A DNA stretch of 64,000 bases. It comes from Cellulomonas timonensis (GTDB lineage Bacteria > Actinomycetota > Actinomycetes > Actinomycetales > Cellulomonadaceae). Positions 8,075-31,431 of this stretch are shown piece by piece. Location: assembly GCF_900046455.1 (NCBI RefSeq), contig NZ_FCOT01000012.1:544017-608016 (forward strand). The letters run 5' to 3'. The translations under genes were made by a program, and so were the position numbers. A model generated the notes under the pieces. The model did not search any database. It was not told where the DNA came from and saw nothing but the letters and a program-made list of their open reading frames with translations. Positions within the stretch are counted from its first letter, which is position 1, and every line of letters begins with the position of its first letter.

Positions 8075-9994
8075 TCAGCCGTTGTACTCCCAGTGCCAGG
8101 CCTCAGGCTTGCTGCCGCCCATCTGCGCCCAGCTGGGGTGCACCCAGCCGAACCGGCCGGCGTTCGCCTTCATCCACTGGTGCTGCGGCGACCCGAAGGT
8201 CTGGATGCCGCCGCCCAGGTCGAGGGCGCGGGCCCAGCCGTGGGTGGACGTGCCAGGCGTCCCGGCCAGGTAGCCGAGCTGGGCCTTGACCCGCACCTGC
8301 GCGTCGTAGGACCGGTAGGAGTCCGTGATGCTCATGTCGGTGCCGAACGCATGCCGGTACTCGATGTTCATCAGCTCGAGCGACGCGGCCGCGTCGCAGC
8401 GCAGCTGGGCGCCCGGGGCGAAGCTCAGCCCGCAGAGCGACGACTCGGGGAACCGGCCGTTGCCCGCGCTGGGCACGCCCTCGGCCGCGACCCGCGCAGA
8501 AGCCTGCGCGGCGGCGGCGCGCGAGGCGTCGTCCTTGGCGGCCATGGCGGCAGCCTCGGCCTCGGCCTTCGCGGCGGCCTCGGCGGCAGCCTGGGCCGCG
8601 GCAGCCTCAGCCGCCGCCTGCTCGGCTGCGGCCTGCTCGGCGGCAGCCTTCTCGGCCAGCTTCTGCTCGGCCGCGGCGACCTGCTCCGCGGTCGGCTCCG
8701 GGACCTCCGGAACCTGGGCGATCACAGCTGTGCCCGACGCGCCGATGCCCGCGGCGGCACTGACCTTCTCGGTCAGGTCGGTCACCTGGTCGAGGGCGTC
8801 GTGCATGTCCGCCGCCACGGTCTGCGTGGCGTGCTCCTTGGCCGACGAGGTCAGCACGTCAGTCAGCATGGTCCCCGCGGAGCGGTCCGTGGCGAGCGGG
8901 CCGATGTTGGTCGGCTCGACAGACGCCGTCCGGACGGTCCCGACGATGTCGGAGCCGGACTTCTTCTCAGCGGCAGCCGTCTCGACGAGCTGCTCCTGCG
9001 CGGACTGCTGCTCGGCGGCAGGCTGAGCCTCGGCGGGCTGCTCTCCCTCGGCAGGCTGCTGCTCGGCAGGCTGCTCACCCTCGGCGGGCTGCTGCTCGGC
9101 AGGCTGCTCACCCTCGGCGGGCTGCTGCTCGGCAGGCTGCTCACCCTCGGCGGGCTGCTGCTCGGCAGGCTGCTCACCCTCGGCGGGCTGCTGCTCGGCG
9201 GGCTGCTGCTCGGCGGGCTGCTCCTGCTCGGGAGCCTCCTCGGCCTGCTGCGCCGCCTCGGCCTCGGCAGCCTTGTCCGCCTCGACCGCCAGAGCGATCT
9301 CGACCTCGAGGGCGGAGCGCTCCTCGACAAGCCCGTTCGCGCTGAGGATCTCGTTGAGCCGCGCGGTCGCGGCGTCGAGCTCGTCGGTGGGGATGTCGGC
9401 CGCGTTCGCGGCCTCGCGGACGGCGTCGGCCGTCTTGGCGGCGTCGGCGGCGACCTGCGAGACGTCAGCAAGCCGCTCGTCCTCCGACACCTGGGAGGCC
9501 TCGGCGCCGATCGCCGGCGTGGCGAACGCGGCGCCACCGCCCAGGAGCAGGCCTGCGGCGAGCACACCACGGGCGATGGGGCGGGCCTGCAAGGTCCGCG
9601 TGATGTGATGCATGCGGATCGTCTCGACGAGACGACCGAAGTGGTGCGTCACCAGGTCGGCGTACTCGCGGATCACGGCGACGGCTTGGCTGTTCCGCAC
9701 CGCCTCGGCCGCGGGGCTGGCGAGGAGCGCCTGTGCCTGGTCGTCGGCCCATGCGAGGAACCGGGTGATCTCGGCTCGGAGCGTCTGGACGACGCTGGTC
9801 TGCTGGAGGACAGAGAAGAGGGTGGCCAGGCCGAGAAGCTGGACCATCGTGTGAGGCCGGAGGGCCCGGATCACCCTGTGGATGCGAGTGTTGGTCATCA
9901 TCAACATGGTGGATATGTCGGGGGCGACTGCACGCATCGCCCGGTGGCCACGGTCTCGGAGGGACCGGGTTGTCGGACGCTTTCTGTTACTCAC
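8075..9994 (-). CDS. Repeat-rich exported protein with C-terminal VanY-type D-Ala-D-Ala carboxypeptidase domain
   Basis: About 639 residues. A basic N-terminal region of roughly 140 residues precedes a hydrophobic export or anchor segment (GVLAAGLLLGGGAAFATPAI). Then come a long Ala/Glu/Gln-rich section with tandem PAEGEQPAEQQ repeats and an Ala-rich coiled-coil-like stretch. The C-terminal domain has SxHGWARALD and WHWEY, which carry the zinc ligands of the peptidase M15/VanY fold, and ends GSKPEAWHWEYNG as in many actinobacterial wall enzymes. It probably trims peptidoglycan stem peptides outside the membrane. The GTG start at 9994 is favoured because a TATCGT box lies seven bases upstream (leaderless); an ATG at 10012 is the alternative. 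Confidence 0.82.
   Translation of the reverse strand: MSNRKRPTTRSLRDRGHRAMRAVAPDISTMLMMTNTRIHRVIRALRPHTMVQLLGLATLFSVLQQTSVVQTLRAEITRFLAWADDQAQALLASPAAEAVRNSQAVAVIREYADLVTHHFGRLVETIRMHHITRTLQARPIARGVLAAGLLLGGGAAFATPAIGAEASQVSEDERLADVSQVAADAAKTADAVREAANAADIPTDELDAATARLNEILSANGLVEERSALEVEIALAVEADKAAEAEAAQQAEEAPEQEQPAEQQPAEQQPAEGEQPAEQQPAEGEQPAEQQPAEGEQPAEQQPAEGEQPAEQQPAEGEQPAEAQPAAEQQSAQEQLVETAAAEKKSGSDIVGTVRTASVEPTNIGPLATDRSAGTMLTDVLTSSAKEHATQTVAADMHDALDQVTDLTEKVSAAAGIGASGTAVIAQVPEVPEPTAEQVAAAEQKLAEKAAAEQAAAEQAAAEAAAAQAAAEAAAKAEAEAAAMAAKDDASRAAAAQASARVAAEGVPSAGNGRFPESSLCGLSFAPGAQLRCDAAASLELMNIEYRHAFGTDMSITDSYRSYDAQVRVKAQLGYLAGTPGTSTHGWARALDLGGGIQTFGSPQHQWMKANAGRFGWVHPSWAQMGGSKPEAWHWEYNG
9038..9225 (-). 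repeat. 33-bp tandem repeats encoding PAEGEQPAEQQ
   Basis: About five near-perfect in-frame 33-bp units inside the carboxypeptidase-like gene, each encoding PAEGEQPAEQQ, flanked by shorter PAEQQ units. The repeat makes an acidic, proline-spaced linker likely to span the cell wall. Unit number is likely to vary between strains and is hard to assemble from short reads. Confidence 0.85.
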
Positions 9995-23918: not shown

Positions 23919-25655
23919 ATGAGGCACCATCCCCGCACTGCCCGCCACGCGGCCGATCCACACGATCCCGTTCCACGCATGGCTCCGGCGTTCGGCTGGC
24001 CACGGCCCCGCCTCTCCGCGTTGGCGCTGGCCGGCGTGCTCGCGCTCGCCGCGGCCACACCGGCCGCCGCGACGCCCGGCTCCGGCCCGCAGGCCCGCGA
24101 CAAGGCGCCCCAGCAGGTCGGCGCGCTGGTGAACGGCGGCTTCGAGGCGGGCCTCACCGGCTGGAAGGTCACCGGGGCCACGGGCGCCGCGAAGGTCGAG
24201 GGCCCCGGGCACGACGGCTCGGCGCAGCGCCTCGCCCACTGGTCCGCCAGCGCGTACGACGTGCGCACCCGGCAGACGGTGAAGCGCCTGGCGCCGGGCT
24301 GGTGGACGGTCAGCGCATGGGTGAAGTCCGGTGGGGCGCTCGACGCGACCACGCTCGGCCTCACCGGCTGCGGCGTGGACGACGTGACGACCACCCCGCT
24401 CACCGAGCAGGACGACGCGTGGGTGCGGCTGTCCGTGTCCGCGAAGGTCCGCGGCGGATCCTGCACCGTGGAGATCGCCACGCGCGGGCCGGGCGGCGCC
24501 TGGGCCAACGTGGACGACGTGACCCTCACGCCGGGGCAGGTCTCGCGGGACGTGCGCGGCGGCGACCTGTCCGGGCTCGCCAAGAACGAGGACCATGGCG
24601 CCACGTACAAGACGGCGAAGGGCAAGGCCGGGGACGCGGTGCGGATCCTCGCCGACGCCGGGATGAACGTGGGACGGCTCAAGGTGTGGGTGGACCCGGC
24701 GGACGGGTACAACGACCGCGAGCACGTCGTGGCGACGGCCAAGCGCATCAAGGCCGCGGGCATGGGCCTGTTGGTCGACTTCCACTACTCGGACCGCTGG
24801 ACCGACCCGGGCGCGCAGGGCGTGCCGTCCGCGTGGGCGGGCCAGTCCCCGGCCGAGCTCCAGCAGTCCGTCCACGACCACACGCGCGACGTGCTCGACG
24901 CCCTCGCGGCCGAGGGCATCACCGCCGACTACGTCCAGGTGGGGAACGAGATCAACCCGGGGATGCTGTGGCCGTGGGGCCAGACCTGGGACGTCGACAC
25001 CACCGACGGCGTCGTGGGCGCGCAGTGGGACAACCTGGCCGCGTTCCTCACCGCGGGAGCCCAGGCGGTGCGCGAGGTGGACCCCGACACCCGCGTGATC
25101 CTGCACTTGACGAACATCAACAACGGCATCGGCTCACTGACCTGGTGGTTCGACGAGGTCACCGCCAGGTCAGTCCCGTTCGACGTGATCGGCCTGTCCT
25201 ACTACGGCTACTGGCACGGCAGCCTGGCGGATCTGCAGGGCGCCGTCAGCACCCTGTCGCAGCGCTACGACCGCGACGTGCTGGTCGTCGAGACCGCCTA
25301 CCCGTTCACCCTCGAGGATGACTCCCCCGCGTGGGAGAACATCATGAACCTCCCCGACGAGCTCGTCTCCGGCTACCCCGCCACCCCGGCGGGCCAGGCC
25401 GCCGCGCTGCGCGCCGTGCAGGACGTCGTCGCCTCGGCGCCCGGCGGCCGCGGCATCGGGACGGTCTACTGGGAGCCCGCGTGGACGGCTGTGGAGGGCA
25501 ACGGCTGGGACCCGGAGGACCCGTCATCGGGCAATGCCTGGGAGAACCAGGCGCTGTTCGACTTCGACGGCCGGCTGCTGCCCGCGGCGAAGGAGCTCGC
25601 GGCCGATCCGTCGACCACGGCCCTGTGCGAGCACGGCGGCCGCCGAGCCCGCTGA
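23919..25655 (+). CDS. Secreted GH53 endo-beta-1,4-galactanase with N-terminal carbohydrate-binding-like domain
   Basis: 578 residues. Signal peptide with core ALALAGVLALAAATPAAATP. Residues about 60-205 form a beta-sandwich domain (NGGFEAGLTGWKVTG onward) resembling the CBM61 or similar module found with GH53. The GH53 barrel begins at GMNVGRLKVWVDPADGYND; catalytic glutamates are E344 (VQVGNEINPG) and E458 (VVETAYPFT). It cuts the beta-1,4-galactan side chains of pectin outside the cell, feeding the importer and GH42. A 22-bp palindrome in the 50-bp gap after GH42 may modulate read-through. Confidence 0.94.
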   Translation: MRHHPRTARHAADPHDPVPRMAPAFGWPRPRLSALALAGVLALAAATPAAATPGSGPQARDKAPQQVGALVNGGFEAGLTGWKVTGATGAAKVEGPGHDGSAQRLAHWSASAYDVRTRQTVKRLAPGWWTVSAWVKSGGALDATTLGLTGCGVDDVTTTPLTEQDDAWVRLSVSAKVRGGSCTVEIATRGPGGAWANVDDVTLTPGQVSRDVRGGDLSGLAKNEDHGATYKTAKGKAGDAVRILADAGMNVGRLKVWVDPADGYNDREHVVATAKRIKAAGMGLLVDFHYSDRWTDPGAQGVPSAWAGQSPAELQQSVHDHTRDVLDALAAEGITADYVQVGNEINPGMLWPWGQTWDVDTTDGVVGAQWDNLAAFLTAGAQAVREVDPDTRVILHLTNINNGIGSLTWWFDEVTARSVPFDVIGLSYYGYWHGSLADLQGAVSTLSQRYDRDVLVVETAYPFTLEDDSPAWENIMNLPDELVSGYPATPAGQAAALRAVQDVVASAPGGRGIGTVYWEPAWTAVEGNGWDPEDPSSGNAWENQALFDFDGRLLPAAKELAADPSTTALCEHGGRRAR

Positions 25656-25690
25656 GCGCCCTCACTGATTAGCTCAGCCGTCAGTGGGCA

Positions 25691-25715
25691 GTCCGCCCCG
25701 GTGCGCGGGGCGGGC
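25691..25715. terminator. Terminator between GH53 gene and the convergent DUF4126 gene
   Basis: Stem of 8 bp or more (ccgccccg / cggggcgg) with loop gtgcg. It lies in the 63-bp gap between convergent genes. Confidence 0.7.
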
Positions 25716-25718
25716 TGC

Positions 25719-26171
25719 TCACCTGGACCGCACCGCCAGTGCCGCGAGCCCCACGGATGCCGCGTCCTCGAGGAGCGCCCCCGGCCAGTCGGGGCCTCGC
25801 GCGTCAGCCCAGCCCCGCCATGCGGCGCCCGTCCAGGTCCCCGCGAGGGCGCCTGCCGCCCCGGCGAGCGCGGGCAATGGCAGGGGCGAGCCCGCGCGTC
25901 GGGCGAGGATCGCCGCTCCGGCGACGGCATTCGCCACCCGGAGCGCCGGGCCCGGCGCGTTGAGGCGGCTGGGGGTGGTGGGCAGCTTGTCGATCACCAT
26001 CTCGCCGACCACACCGAGCAGCAGCACCCAGCGCCGGACCCGGACCCTCTGCGCGGACCCAGGCTCGGGCGGCGGCCCAGCCAACAGCGGCGCCGCCAGG
26101 CCCATCGATCCCCGGCCACCGGTCGCCACACCGAGCACGAAGCACCGTGCGACGACCCCGCGCGCCGTCAT
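25719..26171 (-). CDS. DUF4126-like membrane protein
   Basis: 150 residues with several Ala/Gly/Leu-rich hydrophobic stretches. The pattern of short paired segments around DKLPTTPSRL and a closing EDAASVGLAALAV is that of DUF4126 membrane proteins, whose function is unknown. ATG 26171 is chosen because GGGGGAGAA lies just upstream; an ATG five codons earlier has no such site. It stands alone, convergent with the GH53 gene. Confidence 0.68.
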   Translation of the reverse strand: MTARGVVARCFVLGVATGGRGSMGLAAPLLAGPPPEPGSAQRVRVRRWVLLLGVVGEMVIDKLPTTPSRLNAPGPALRVANAVAGAAILARRAGSPLPLPALAGAAGALAGTWTGAAWRGWADARGPDWPGALLEDAASVGLAALAVRSR

Positions 26172-26263
26172 CCGCTTCTCCCCCATCCGCCCAAAATGGC
26201 CCCTGCGGGCGCGGGCGGCAACTGGTGCGGGTGACGGCCCCCACCTGAGGCGGTGGGGTGTTC

Positions 26264-26305
26264 CCGCGGCCGGACGCCACGCCCTCCTGTGGCGCCCGGC
26301 CGCGG
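26264..26305 (-). terminator. Hairpin terminator after the sigma-linked membrane protein gene
   Basis: 10-bp stem ccgcggccgg (26264-26273) with ccggccgcgg (26296-26305), extended inside by GCCAC/GTGGC. It lies directly beyond the stop at 26310. Confidence 0.75.
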
Positions 26306-26309
26306 AGCC

Positions 26310-27704
26310 TCAGCCGGCGGGCGCGAAGTCCAGGTGCGCGTCCGCCACGGCCACGACGCTCCAGGTGCTGCCGGAGCCGTCGGACAGCTCGTAGCTGGGC
26401 AGCAGCACGGTGGCGCCGTTGTCGGGATGGGTCAGCCCGAGGCCGAGGCGCGCGGACGTCAGGGTGACCTCCGTGACGGCCCAGGGGAGCCGGGCGCCAG
26501 CGACCGGGGTGGGCGGGACGGTGAAGTCGGGCTCCACCGGCATAATCGCCATGTCGGGCACGGCCGCCTCGAGCTCGGTGGTGCGGGCCAGCGGCATGAT
26601 CCCGCCCCAGCTGCTCCCGAACCGCGGGTCGGTGAGCCGCGCGACGGCGTCCGCCGCGCTGATCACCTCGAGCTCACCGAGCTCGACCACCGGCGCCAGG
26701 GACCCGTTGAGGCTCTGCACCACGCCATCGGCGGCGAGCTGCACGTTCCACGCCACCCCGGTCCGCTGCCCGTCGAGCAGCAGCTCCGCCGTGACGGAGG
26801 CGATCTCCGTCGTCCAGCTCTCGCCGAGGACGACCTCGTAGGCGGTGTCGTCGACGCCCATGGCGCCCAGCAGCTCACGGGTCCGCTCGATCGCCTGATC
26901 GGCGCCGGGGGCCGGCTTGCCGCCCTCACACGACTCGAGGGCGGGCGCGGGGGCGATCTCGATCGCCGCGCCGCCCGGGTCGGCGGAGGCGCCGCCGACC
27001 CCCGTGGACGCGCTGACGCACTGACCCGCCTGGACCGTGGGGTCGTAGTAGTTGACGCTCGTGAGGCCGTCGGGCTGCACCTGCACCGAGGGGCCGGAGC
27101 CGTCGTTGGGGCCGATCCGCCACGAGCCCCACTCCTGCACGGGCTCGCCGGTGACGCCGAGCGCCTTCGCGACCCTCTCCGCGGTCTCGCGCGAGTACGA
27201 CGCCTCCGCGTCGAAGCCCCAGGCGGTGGCCGCTCCCCCGTCGGTGGACAGCCCCGAGCCGGTGTACACGGTCCGTCCGCCGAAGCCCATCGACATCCGG
27301 TCCTCCGCCATGGACAGCGCGCCACCGGCGGCTGAGGCGGCCTCCGGGGCCGCTCCCCCGAGGTCCACGGCCGCCGGGATGGAGCTGCCCGCCGCCGTCT
27401 GATCGGGGCCGGTCGACCCTGAGCCCAGCGCGTACCCGCTGGTCCCGACGATCGCGAGGGCTGCGACGCCCGCGGCGACCTGGAACCAGCGCGCCCCCAG
27501 CGTCCGTCGCTGTCGACGCGCGGCGAGCTCGTCCCCGGTGGCGTCCGGCTCACCGGCGGCCGGCCCGTCAGCGGCGAGGTCGCCGGTGCGGGCCGCGACG
27601 GCGGCGTTCAGGCGGTCGACGTCCGGCTCGGCGCCGGTGGCCGGGTCGGCGTCGCGGAGCCGGTCGAACGGGTCGTCGGGCGGGAGGGGCGGCACGCTGG
27701 TCAC
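26310..27704 (-). CDS. Single-pass membrane protein, candidate partner or anti-sigma of the ECF sigma factor
   Basis: 464 residues. About 70 cytoplasmic residues (acidic then basic, ending ARRQRRTLGARW), one membrane segment (VAAGVAALAIVGTSGYAL), then a large exterior domain of about 370 residues with several conserved-looking W/Y-rich stretches. The start is GTG 27704 with CGGAGG upstream. It lies downstream of an ECF sigma gene on the same strand, the usual place for an anti-sigma factor. The cytoplasmic part lacks the HxxxCxxC zinc motif of typical ZAS anti-sigmas, so the role is inference. The intergenic region above it contains a suspected artefact. Confidence 0.65.
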   Translation of the reverse strand: MTSVPPLPPDDPFDRLRDADPATGAEPDVDRLNAAVAARTGDLAADGPAAGEPDATGDELAARRQRRTLGARWFQVAAGVAALAIVGTSGYALGSGSTGPDQTAAGSSIPAAVDLGGAAPEAASAAGGALSMAEDRMSMGFGGRTVYTGSGLSTDGGAATAWGFDAEASYSRETAERVAKALGVTGEPVQEWGSWRIGPNDGSGPSVQVQPDGLTSVNYYDPTVQAGQCVSASTGVGGASADPGGAAIEIAPAPALESCEGGKPAPGADQAIERTRELLGAMGVDDTAYEVVLGESWTTEIASVTAELLLDGQRTGVAWNVQLAADGVVQSLNGSLAPVVELGELEVISAADAVARLTDPRFGSSWGGIMPLARTTELEAAVPDMAIMPVEPDFTVPPTPVAGARLPWAVTEVTLTSARLGLGLTHPDNGATVLLPSYELSDGSGSTWSVVAVADAHLDFAPAG

Positions 27705-27730
27705 GGTGACCTCCGAGGGTCGGGATGGGG

Positions 27731-27762
27731 TGCGACGGGTCGAAGACTCTTCTGCCCCGTCT
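27731..27762. repeat. 32-bp direct repeat, copy 1
   Basis: Identical to 27842-27873 (starts tgcgacgggtcgaag, ends gccccgtct). The two copies flank an 79-bp stretch of foreign character. Taken alone, each copy also folds with gacggg/cccgtc arms, and one copy may be the native terminator of the sigma gene. Confidence 0.9.
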
Positions 27763-27841
27763 CCTTATACACATCTGACGCCGCCGTCGAGTCTTCCCGC
27801 CTGCGCTCCCTTTACACCCAGTAATTCCGCAGCAATTCCGT
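27756..27841. other. Probable assembly artefact: sequencing-adapter-like plus foreign 16S rRNA-like sequence
   Basis: Read on the minus strand, 27756-27790 closely follows the Nextera read-1 overhang adapter, including an exact 16-base run GTCAGATGTGTATAAG. Next to it, 27791-27828 matches the V4 part of 16S rRNA from Clostridia-like bacteria (GGAATTACTGGGTGTAAAG and GGAGCGCAGGCGGGAAGAC). The base composition is lower in GC than the surroundings. The order 16S fragment, adapter, host sequence fits a chimeric library molecule. I regard the stretch as not part of the chromosome. The adapter and 16S matches are from memory, not from a search. Confidence 0.8.
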
Positions 27842-27873
27842 TGCGACGGGTCGAAGACTCTTCTGCCCCGTCT
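27842..27873. repeat. 32-bp direct repeat, copy 2
   Basis: Second copy of the repeat at 27731-27762. Collapsing the two copies removes 111 bp and leaves a normal intergenic space of about 111 bp between the sigma factor and the membrane protein gene. Confidence 0.9.
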
Positions 27874-27926
27874 ATGTGGCGTCGAGGCCGGGACTTGCAC
27901 CCGGGGTGGTCAGGCGGGGTGGTCGG

Positions 27927-28475
27927 TCAGGCGGGGGCGTGCGCCGCCCAGGCGTCCTGCAGGCGGGCGCGGGCGCGGGACAGCGCGGCGTCGGCTCCGC
28001 CCCGGCTGATGCCGAGCACCTCGGCGAGCTCGGCGCCGTTGAGGCCCTCCCACGCGCCGAGGAGCAGGATGCGCCGGTCCCGGGGGCTGAGCGCGGCGAG
28101 CACGTCGCGCACCTGCTCGTCGGCCACCGCGAGGGTCGCCGGGTCGCTCTCGTCGATCTCATCGGGCACATCGCCCACCGGCACGGGGCGGCCCTTGCGT
28201 CGGTGGTTCGCGAGCACGAAGCCCGCGGTGCGGTACAGCCACGGCAGCTCGGCGCCCTCGGGCACGTCGGCCCTCCGCCGCCAGGCGACGGCGAGCACGT
28301 CGGCGGCCAGGTCCTCCGCGTCGTCACGGGGCGCCCGGCGCACGAAGTACCGGTAGAGCGCCGGGCCGTGCTCGCGCACCATCGACTCGAACCACGGCGC
28401 GTCATGCTGCGCGGGCACGCTCATCCACTCGGGGGTGGGCGGCGTGTCGTGGTCACGTTCGGTCCGCGGCGGCAC
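27927..28475 (-). CDS. ECF-type RNA polymerase sigma factor
   Basis: About 182 residues from GTG 28475 (GGAG five bases upstream), or 165 from an ATG at 28424. Region 2 is visible as FESMVREHGPALYRYFVRRA then DAEDLAADVLAVAWRR; region 4 as LSPRDRRILLLGAWEGLNGA then ELAEVLGISRGGADAALSRAR, the HTH that reads the -35 element. It directs RNA polymerase to a small stress regulon. Its likely partner is the membrane protein gene just downstream. Confidence 0.9.
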   Translation of the reverse strand: MPPRTERDHDTPPTPEWMSVPAQHDAPWFESMVREHGPALYRYFVRRAPRDDAEDLAADVLAVAWRRRADVPEGAELPWLYRTAGFVLANHRRKGRPVPVGDVPDEIDESDPATLAVADEQVRDVLAALSPRDRRILLLGAWEGLNGAELAEVLGISRGGADAALSRARARLQDAWAAHAPA

Positions 28476-28587
28476 GGCGTCTCCTGGGCTCGGGGGGCGC
28501 GCTCGGGCGAGAGCTCCTCCACCCAGCCTGTGTCGCGGCCCACCGGCATCTTGCACGCCGCCTGCGACATTCCTCGCACTGATGCCA

Positions 28588-28626
28588 CGGCCCGGGCTCA
28601 TGTCCCGCCGACACGAGCCCGGGCCG
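28588..28626 (-). terminator. Terminator after the MinD/ParA-like gene
   Basis: Perfect 12-bp stem: cggcccgggctc (28588-28599) with gagcccgggccg (28615-28626), 15-base loop, 17 bp beyond the stop at 28643. Confidence 0.75.
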
Positions 28627-28642
28627 TGATCGCGGCCGGCGG

Positions 28643-29965
28643 CTACAGGCCGTCCGCCACCTCGGCGGTGACCTGCAGCCACGCCTCCCGGGTCCGCCGG
28701 GACAGCGCGTCGTACCCGATGGGCCCGCCGCTGACGAGCCCGCTGTCATACGGCACGTCGATCACGGAGCGGGTGAGCGCGCCGAAGTGCTGGTGCAGGC
28801 GCCGCCGCAGCCGGCGGTCCACGCGGGGGGCTGGCGCCGAGAGCACCGTCACCGCCCGGCGGATGAGGTCGTCGTGGCCGGTGGCCCGCAGCGCGTCGAG
28901 CGCCCACGCGGCCGACTGCGCGGTGTCCTCGCGGACGGTGGAGACCACCACGAGCTGGTCGGCGACCTCCACCGCCGCCTGCCAGTTCGACGCCCGCATG
29001 TTGTTGCCGGTGTCGACCACCATGACGCGGTAGAAGCGCTCGAGGGTGCCGTGCAGCTCGCCGAAGGCCTCGGCGTCGACGGAGGCGGCGGAGGCCGCGT
29101 CCTCGTCGGAGGCGAGCACGTCGAACTGCGCCGAGCCCTGCGAGCGCACGTAGTTGTCGAGGTCGCCCACCCGGGCCACCTGGAGGTCGGTGAACCGCGA
29201 GAGGTTCTGCAGCAGGTTGACCGCCGTGTTGGTGTGGCGCGCGTGCTCCGAGCGCCAGCCCAGGGTGCCGCGCGTCTCGTTGTTGTCCCACGCCAGCGTG
29301 TAGCCGCCGCGGTGGATGCCGAACGTCGAGGCGAGCAGCAGCGTCGCGGTGGTCTTGTGCGCGCCGCCCTTGGGGTTGATGACGACGATGGTCTTGGGCC
29401 CGTCGAGGCTGCGCTGCACGGCCCGCACGGCATCGCGGTGCCGGTGCTCGTTGCGGCCGGGTCCCACGGTGACCAGGCCGAGGGTCGCGCGGCGCACGGC
29501 CACCTGCCAGCCATGCTCGGCCGGACCGGTGGGGCTCTGCGACCGGGTGGCCAGCAAGTCGTCGAGCGTCGGCAGCGGGTCGCCGTCGGGCTCCGCCGCA
29601 GCGGGGCGCCGGGTGGACCTCGTCGTGCGGGCGGTCCGGCCGCCGGCGTGCGCTCCCCCGTCGGGCGCGTTGCGCGGGCCCTCAGCGACCCCGCTCGCCG
29701 CCTCCTCCACAGTCCCGTCGGGGTGGATGACCAACGACCAGGTGCCATCCGGGTCCTCGACCTCGGCGGGCAGCGGCCGTCCGGCGCGTCCCGCGAGCTC
29801 GGCGATGAGGCCGGTGACGGCTGCGCCCGCCTCGGCCATGCTGCCTGTCGCGACGCGCTGCACGATCCCCTCGATCACGATCTCCCCCGTGCCATCGGCC
29901 CGGACGACGGCTTGCACCGGGTCGGTCGTGTGCACGTCTTGAGCAACGGCTCCTGGCTCGCTCAT
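28643..29965 (-). CDS. MinD/ParA-like P-loop ATPase with long N-terminal extension
   Basis: 440 residues. Residues 1-175 form a Gly/Ala/Thr-rich extension with a short beta-rich start (DGTGEIVIEGIV). The ATPase domain has a deviant Walker A, NPKGGAHKTT near residue 196, with the signature lysine, and a Walker B-like VMVVDTGNN. This is the SIMIBI/MinD fold seen in ParA-like and type VII secretion-associated ATPases of actinobacteria. No parB, parS-like cluster or ESX gene is nearby, so cargo or partner is unknown. It is transcribed alone. Confidence 0.8.
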   Translation of the reverse strand: MSEPGAVAQDVHTTDPVQAVVRADGTGEIVIEGIVQRVATGSMAEAGAAVTGLIAELAGRAGRPLPAEVEDPDGTWSLVIHPDGTVEEAASGVAEGPRNAPDGGAHAGGRTARTTRSTRRPAAAEPDGDPLPTLDDLLATRSQSPTGPAEHGWQVAVRRATLGLVTVGPGRNEHRHRDAVRAVQRSLDGPKTIVVINPKGGAHKTTATLLLASTFGIHRGGYTLAWDNNETRGTLGWRSEHARHTNTAVNLLQNLSRFTDLQVARVGDLDNYVRSQGSAQFDVLASDEDAASAASVDAEAFGELHGTLERFYRVMVVDTGNNMRASNWQAAVEVADQLVVVSTVREDTAQSAAWALDALRATGHDDLIRRAVTVLSAPAPRVDRRLRRRLHQHFGALTRSVIDVPYDSGLVSGGPIGYDALSRRTREAWLQVTAEVADGL

Positions 29966-30096
29966 CAGCTGGGCCTCCCATCGACGGTGACGATGCCGTC
30001 CCGAACCTACGCTGGACCTGTCGTTTTCGCATCGTAAAGGGCATTTCCGGCATTCGCGGCGTGGCGGGCCCGCGCGCCGGTGCGGCCCACGGCGCC

Positions 30097-30102
30097 TAGG
30101 CT
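30097..30102 (+). promoter_or_regulatory. -10 box TAGGCT for leaderless amidotransferase transcript
   Basis: TAGGCT followed by seven bases and then GTG 30110. It supports that start over other in-frame choices. Confidence 0.55.
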
Positions 30103-30109
30103 CGGACCG

Positions 30110-30838
30110 GTGAGGCCCTTCCTCCTGCTCGCGTCACGCGCCGAGGACGTCGCCGCGGACGACGAGCTCGCGGCCTTCGCGCGGTTCGGCGGGCTGAGCC
30201 CCGACCGGCTGCACCGGGTGCGGATGGAGGCCGGCCCGCTGCCCCCGATCGACCTCGACGACTACGCGGGCGTCCTGATGGGCGGCAGCCCGTTCAACTC
30301 ATCCGACCCCGAGGACGCCAAGCCGCCGACGCAGCGGCGCGTGGAGGCCGAGCTGCGCCCGCTGCTGGACCAGATCGTCGCGCGCGACGTGCCGTTCCTC
30401 GGCTCCTGCTACGGCGTCGGCACGCTCGGAGTCCACCAGGGCGCGGTCATCGACGGCCGCTACGCGGAGCCCGTGGGGCCCGTGCCCGTCACGCTCACCG
30501 ACGCCGGGGCGGCCGACCCGCTCCTCGCAGGCCTGCCGCGCACGTTCGACGCGTTCGTCGGGCACAAGGAGGCGTGTGCTGAACTGCCCCCGGCCGCGAC
30601 CCTCCTGGCGTCCTCCCCCACCTGCCCAGTCCAGATGTTCCGGCTGCGACGCCACCTGTACGCGACGCAGTTCCACCCGGAGCTCGACGCACAGGGGATC
30701 CTCACCCGCATCGAGGTGTACCGGCACGCCGGGTACTTCCCCGCACACGAGGCCGATCAGGTCGCCGCCCGGATCCGCGCCGCCGACGTCTCGTGGCCGC
30801 ACCTGGTGCTGCGCAACTTCGTCCGGCTGTTCGGCTGA
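30110..30838 (+). CDS. Class I glutamine amidotransferase-like protein
   Basis: 242 residues. The nucleophile elbow is GSCYGVG (C100) and the His-Glu pair is in QFHPEL (H189, E191), the complete class I triad. It is a stand-alone domain related to the GMP-synthase amidotransferase (GuaA N-terminal) group, which often acts on unknown acceptors in actinobacteria; closely similar proteins are annotated as GMP synthase-like or gamma-glutamyl hydrolases. The substrate cannot be read from the sequence. The start at GTG 30110 is supported by the TAGGCT box. Confidence 0.88.
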   Translation: MRPFLLLASRAEDVAADDELAAFARFGGLSPDRLHRVRMEAGPLPPIDLDDYAGVLMGGSPFNSSDPEDAKPPTQRRVEAELRPLLDQIVARDVPFLGSCYGVGTLGVHQGAVIDGRYAEPVGPVPVTLTDAGAADPLLAGLPRTFDAFVGHKEACAELPPAATLLASSPTCPVQMFRLRRHLYATQFHPELDAQGILTRIEVYRHAGYFPAHEADQVAARIRAADVSWPHLVLRNFVRLFG

Positions 30839-30981
30839 CACCCGCCACCCCTGCGGGACGACCGGTCGGCGGATGGCCTCTTGCCGCACCGTCGCGGGGT
30901 CACTACGTTCACCATGCCCCCACCAGGCACGCGCCGTGCTCCGACTTCCCGATGGACTCCCTGCGATGAAGCGAGGACGAC

Positions 30982-31431
30982 ATGCCGCCCCGCGCGCACC
31001 CCCCGAGCCTGCCCACCACCCGTTCTGGGCCGTCTGGCCGGGCGGCCGCCCGCCGCCGGGTCGCCGCCGCCACTGGCGCCCTGGCGCTGCTCCTGCTGCT
31101 CCTGGTCGGCTGGCCCGTTGCCACGCGGATGATGTTCGACGCGCGCGCCGAGCCCGGGTGGGCGGTGGTGCAGGGCGTCCTCGGAGACGAGGTGCGCGCC
31201 GTGCACGACTCCGACCCGGAGGGCCCGACGTTCGCCCTCGACCTCGGCGCCGAGCAGGCGGCCCCCGGGCAGCGGGTGGCCGTGCGCTACGACCCAGATG
31301 ACATGCAACGCGTCGTGCCGGCGGCGAGCTCGGTGTGGAGCGTGCCGCTGCTGCTCGGCGCGGCGTTCGCCCCGGTGCTGGCAGCTGTCGCGATCGGCGC
31401 CGCCGCGCGAGGTCGGCGCGGGCGCGGCTGA
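30982..31431 (+). CDS. DUF3592-like membrane protein
   Basis: 149 residues. A basic N-terminus, a membrane segment (GALALLLLLLVGWPVA), an exterior beta domain of about 65 residues (VRYDPDDMQRV near its end), and a second segment (VPLLLGAAFAPVLAAVAIGAA) before a basic tail. The layout matches DUF3592 proteins, whose role is unknown. GAGGA lies upstream of ATG 30982. It ends four bases before the convergent nucleotidyltransferase gene. Confidence 0.65.
   Translation: MPPRAHPPSLPTTRSGPSGRAAARRRVAAATGALALLLLLLVGWPVATRMMFDARAEPGWAVVQGVLGDEVRAVHDSDPEGPTFALDLGAEQAAPGQRVAVRYDPDDMQRVVPAASSVWSVPLLLGAAFAPVLAAVAIGAAARGRRGRG

Follow-up and report, generated by a model that had tools for sequence, protein, structure and literature searches.

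An adapter-bearing stretch between two 32-bp host repeats is almost certainly an assembly scar

Between an ECF-type sigma-factor gene and its neighbor, the window (the whole stretch of DNA analysed here, 64,000 nucleotides long) carries a short insert that is bounded by direct repeats and resembles both a Nextera library adapter and 16S rRNA. The question raised by this locus is whether the insert is part of the chromosome or a product of sequencing and assembly. We conclude that it is almost certainly an assembly scar, which would have arisen when an adapter tail was kept at the end of a contig and this end was then joined to the next contig without removal of a 32-bp overlap. The conclusion is based on the dozens of error-bearing adapters in the same draft genome, the barcode pair that many of them share, the floor of two substitutions in their sequence and the native form of the locus, which lacks the insert.

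Composition of the stretch

On the plus strand, host sequence is followed by the reverse complement of the adapter, the reverse complement of a 16S V4 fragment, 12 unmatched bases and again host sequence (Table 1). The two 32-bp copies are identical, and the 79 bp between them (27763-27841) have a GC content of 57%, compared to 78% in the 500 bp on either side. Both the bounding repeats and the lower GC content of the original prediction are thereby confirmed.

Table 1. Coordinates of the features at 27731-27873 of the window and of the facing adapter pairs in the draft genome
Feature	Position	Strand	Remark
Left copy of the 32-bp direct repeat (host)	27731-27762		Presumed true end of the left contig; present once in congeners G006 and G005
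Nextera read-1 adapter (one base inserted, two substituted)	27759-27790	-	Reference sequence in PMC3906532
Foreign 16S rRNA V4 fragment, Clostridia type	27791-27829	-	27797-27829 identical (33/33) to Subdoligranulum; 27791-27796 presumed
12 bases outside the adapter and 16S matches	27830-27841		Taken as probable read-tail noise
Right copy of the 32-bp direct repeat (host)	27842-27873		Start of the right contig; taken as unremoved contig overlap
Facing adapter pairs	G000:C12:247537-247707; C12:1061847-1062050; C11:534427-534657; C13:380750-380938; C13:645238-645301

Local alignment to the read-1 Nextera sequence gave a score of 22 at this site, against a best score of 13 among 1,820 other segments of the window. 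The adapter had been placed at 27756-27790 on the minus strand; its identity stands, while its start shifts to approximately 27759 by alignment, and the first four bases of the match (GTCT) are common to the host repeat. The exact run that had been claimed within it was recovered as the 16-mer GTCAGATGTGTATAAG on the minus strand at 27764-27779. When up to three mismatches were allowed, the adapter core TTATACACATCTGACGC occurred once in the window and in none of 100 shuffles. The adapter lies directly after host sequence and in read-through orientation, its reverse complement being on the plus strand as in a read-2 read-through. The position at which the i5 barcode would be expected is occupied by 16S sequence instead.

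The adjacent Clostridia-like V4 sequence of the original prediction was likewise found. The 33-bp match to the V4 region of a Subdoligranulum 16S gene scored 33, compared to at most 12 in the 1,820 other window segments, and presumably reaches 27791 in Faecalibacterium-type sequences. The five 16S matches of the host genome itself are merely 75-76% identical to the same Subdoligranulum reference, and the fragment is therefore foreign; a reading of the insert as the host's own 16S rRNA gene was rejected on this ground. Besides these five long matches, a genome search returned the fragment with an E-value of 5e-10, followed by two matches with E-values of 0.92 and 3.2. Among the tails of 46 adapter sites compared with one Subdoligranulum 16S sequence, only that of the window site gave a clear match (33 versus at most 11 in 20 shuffles). 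The tails of loci L019 and L022 scored 13, versus 11 in shuffles, and were not accepted as 16S. The piece is oriented as read 2 of a V4 amplicon would be. One of the collected records (OY725862.1, Subdoligranulum variabile, 5558 bp), listed as a plasmid, contains one complete 16S rRNA gene together with two tRNAs and the beginning of a 23S gene; judged by this gene content, it is probably a chromosomal rRNA piece.

An Rfam scan of 25000-31000 gave two sub-threshold matches, both outside the insert, and did not report the 16S fragment. Searches in plasmid, E. coli and phage collections returned adapter-like or 16S pieces only, with no record covering 80% of the query, and the exact junction of the insert was found in none of the viral contigs searched.

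Adapter copies, barcodes and repeats across the genome

The genome searched is the draft of 13 contigs (4.06 Mb) that contains the window. It holds approximately 46-53 degraded Nextera adapters, the window site included. The adapter core has 35 matches with at most three mismatches (reversed-pattern control: 0), and the read-2 form of the adapter was found at 9 places (control: 0). The 19-base mosaic end CTGTCTCTTATACACATCT was found at 36 places, of which 0, 0, 23 and 13 carry 0, 1, 2 and 3 substitutions, respectively (control: 0), and at up to three mismatches it was absent from six whole congeneric genomes. The total of 53 is a collapsed list of core, mosaic-end and read-2-form places plus one place with the adapter end and i5 barcode, and some of its entries, such as C12:314992 and C9:122577, are weak and may be chance matches; the number of distinct sites examined as sequence is 46. 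Loci were taken from 30 of the 35 core places, 30 of the 36 mosaic-end places, all 9 read-2-form places and 30 of the 62 adapter-end-plus-i5 places; 15 of these last 30 were used in the analyses of tails, repeats and barcodes. Two loci (L036 and L072) have no mosaic-end match within the limits used. The adapter sites are mostly internal to contigs, with one (C1:74-97) at a contig end. Long G runs immediately precede or surround the adapter at two loci on contig C8 (L011 and L022, G000:C8 near 292234 and 186269); they resemble the tails of low-quality reads and are probably non-native too.

Adapter trimmers can work with tolerances of about 10%. The absence of ungapped mosaic ends with fewer than two substitutions is, we infer, the residue to be expected from a trimmer that tolerates about one mismatch, i.e. 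approximately 10% of a 19-base adapter. The window's own mosaic end carries, by eye, one inserted base and one substitution; it is missing from the 36 places because of its inserted base, and its combination of insertion and substitution fits the same floor as the other mosaic ends of the genome.

At many sites, the sequence next to the adapter looks like the barcodes of one library, i5 TCTTACGC (with reverse complement GCGTAAGA) and i7 AGGCAGAA. At 29 sites in read-1 form, the adapter is followed by TCTTACGC exactly in 5 cases, with one mismatch in 7, with two in 8 and with three to six in 9. The adapter end together with the i5 barcode occurs in the genome at 4 places exactly and at 6 with one mismatch; looser matches are mixed with chance ones (62 places versus 13 in the control). 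For the 7 sites in read-2 form, the i7/P7 block contains AGGCAGAA exactly in 4, and all 28 bases are exact in 2. At locus L025, the sequence after the barcode goes on with GTGTAGATCTCGGTGGT, which we take to be P5-type sequence. PMC7589761 lists AGGCAGAA as N703 and GCGTAAGA as S517. Given the barcodes of one library at many adapter sites, the assembly very probably contains fragments of the library from which it was sequenced.

With a score of 20 or above as the threshold, 45 of the 46 sites were tested for host direct repeats on both sides of the adapter; L020, close to the end of a contig, was omitted. Such repeats are present at 6 of the 45 sites, including the window site, and at 0 of 270 control positions. 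At the other 39 sites no host repeat reached this threshold in the span tested, so that a minority of sites show the unremoved overlap directly. Four sites have exact repeats of 32, 42, 26 and 35 bp with different sequence between them. Such varied lengths fit contig overlaps and do not fit the fixed target duplication of a transposon. Furthermore, adapters occur in five facing pairs within 45-184 bp (Table 1), where a rough estimate predicts approximately 0.3 close pairs; the five look like two untrimmed contig ends joined tail to tail. Two more close pairs (C11:534611/534632 and C13:1001753/1001828) do not face each other.

Native locus and origin of the insert

The locus was compared with that of relatives. 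Congener G006 aligns to the query in two parts, 1-163 (89%) and 243-801 (90%), whose target ranges overlap by exactly 32 bp, and has a single 32-bp copy and no insert at the site. The alignment of G005 also passes through the site with one 32-bp copy and without the insert. In alignments on both strands, the joined-flank form scored 423.5 versus 371.5 for the assembled form in G006, and 330 versus 288 in G005. The empty site with one 32-bp copy in both congeners is what the predicted shortening of the native form by 111 bp requires. In total, 13 of 19 loci from relatives favor the joined-flank form and 6 slightly favor the assembled form; these six are more distant, with a poorly aligned intergenic region, and the result is clear in G006 and G005 only. 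When up to four mismatches were allowed, the adapter core was found in none of the 19 loci. At a second scar, L024, the comparison with G006 has the same outcome as at the window site, with an overlap of 40 bp; G005 has no match there. For the facing-pair site L016, no homologous flank was found in G005 or G006.

The assembly scar may have formed as follows. A fragment shorter than the read would have been sequenced through into the far-end adapter, which, because it was read with errors, would have escaped the trimmer. An untrimmed tail of poor sequence would have remained at the contig end, and a gap closer or scaffolder would have joined that end to the next contig. The first 32 bases of the latter would equal the host part of the left contig, and this overlap would have been kept at the join. 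The host repeats, the facing pairs and the contig-end adapters in other genomes support read-through tails at contig ends that were joined later. Read-through alone does not explain the 16S piece, since the piece starts at the i5 barcode position and is the only clear 16S match both among the 46 tails and outside the rRNA genes. A 16S amplicon sequenced on the same run would have contributed it. An amplicon library whose signal entered through a mixed or neighboring cluster, or through a chimeric molecule, is a plausible source, and a contaminant read inserted during gap filling is a possible one. A mixture of adapter and 16S signal at the same cycles did not, by eye, appear to fit the substitutions in the adapter.

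The original prediction had ascribed the stretch to a chimeric library molecule. Its verdict of an artefact holds, but a single molecule of 16S amplicon, adapter and host DNA that was assembled as one piece is unlikely and gives way to a genome-wide fault. Such a molecule would account for the order and content at the window site and for the 16S sequence in the place of the barcode, directly after the adapter. However, the same adapter occurs without 16S at dozens of other sites, the two-substitution floor and the facing pairs indicate read tails and joins, and a host repeat of 32 bp on the far side would require the molecule to re-enter the host. Taken over 46-53 sites, with host repeats at 6 of 45, a single chimeric molecule is inadequate. 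Being an artefact as well, it is compatible with the assembly scar and could have supplied the tail at the window site; the 16S fragment itself may yet require a chimera or signal from another cluster.

Explanations that place the insert in the living chromosome fare far worse. The exact direct repeats on either side would suit a real insertion, in which a tagmentation end or a synthetic construct had duplicated 32 bp of its target, but we regard this as highly improbable: at five other sites the host repeats differ in length and enclose other junk, the barcodes of one library recur at many sites, and the insert is absent from both congeners that align through the site. Moreover, Tn5 generates a target duplication of 9 bp rather than 32 bp. 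Transposon insertion in general was rejected, as it requires a constant element and a constant duplication length, whereas the repeats measure 32, 42, 26 and 35 bp and enclose differing contents. It is just as improbable that adapter-bearing library DNA was truly taken up and integrated at many chromosomal places with duplication of the host ends. That the stretch is a natural, AT-richer regulatory element with a chance resemblance to adapter and 16S can practically be dismissed. Its position between the sigma-factor gene and the next gene would be suitable, but the match scores are far above all else in the window, no adapter-core match is expected by chance, a simple consensus scan gave no promoter or terminator pattern at the insert, and the insert is absent from the two congeners aligning through the site. 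The genome-wide adapter copies and the empty sites are decisive against it. The advice not to treat the stretch as a promoter or element is accordingly upheld by dozens of adapter copies with the barcodes of one library and by the empty site in two congeners.

For annotation, the 79 bp and one 32-bp copy are to be ignored. The ECF-type sigma-factor gene lies at 27927-28682 on the minus strand (Pfam search) and the next gene at 26310-27704, also on the minus strand; the latter encodes a 464-aa protein with no Pfam match, which is possibly the partner of the sigma factor. Since the artefact is in the intergenic region, the true spacing between the two genes is 111 bp shorter than assembled. The open reading frames that run through the stretch, 27538-28356 on the plus strand and 27568-27900 on the minus strand (the latter without Pfam match), are no evidence of genes. 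Elsewhere in the window, a tandem array with a 33-bp unit is present at 9029-9222 (6 copies, 95% matches). The significance of the scar is limited to data quality: approximately 46-53 places need to be rescreened and corrected before genes, promoters or repeats are called. Its signature, i.e. at least two mismatches in every adapter, barcodes of the library in contig interiors and flanking host repeats, flags assemblies that were trimmed but unclean and then scaffolded or gap-filled, and that a search for the exact adapter would miss.

Comparison with known adapter artefacts

According to Turner (2014, PMC3906532), short-insert Nextera XT reads carry at their 3' end the reverse complement of the adapter from the other end; index and PCR primer sequence come next, and then a stretch of As and seemingly random bases. 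The window site resembles this read-through in that a reverse-complement adapter follows host sequence. Unlike the reads described there, the adapter lies within an assembled chromosome, in the interior of a contig, and the run of As is not seen at the window site. Among the paper titles listed in literature searches, none points to internal adapter scars of this kind.

The adapter core was also detected in at least 120 stretches of other public genomes. Among the matches listed, it runs off the fetched sequence within 250 bp at 79 of 80 loci, where the end of the fetched sequence is presumably a contig end. The exact adapter variant of the window is in none of the 85 matches listed for these 80 loci, in a collection that may omit records of the window's own genome. 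Three phage records, KY883635.1, LR597649.1 and LR597635.1 (H41, H45 and H51), have adapter-like matches within approximately 220 bases of the record end, which suggests that adapter was left over in them; some other phage records among the matches have internal ones. Other public draft contigs presumably carry the adapter at their ends, whereas the genome of the window carries it mostly inside its contigs, and this difference points to a later joining of contigs.
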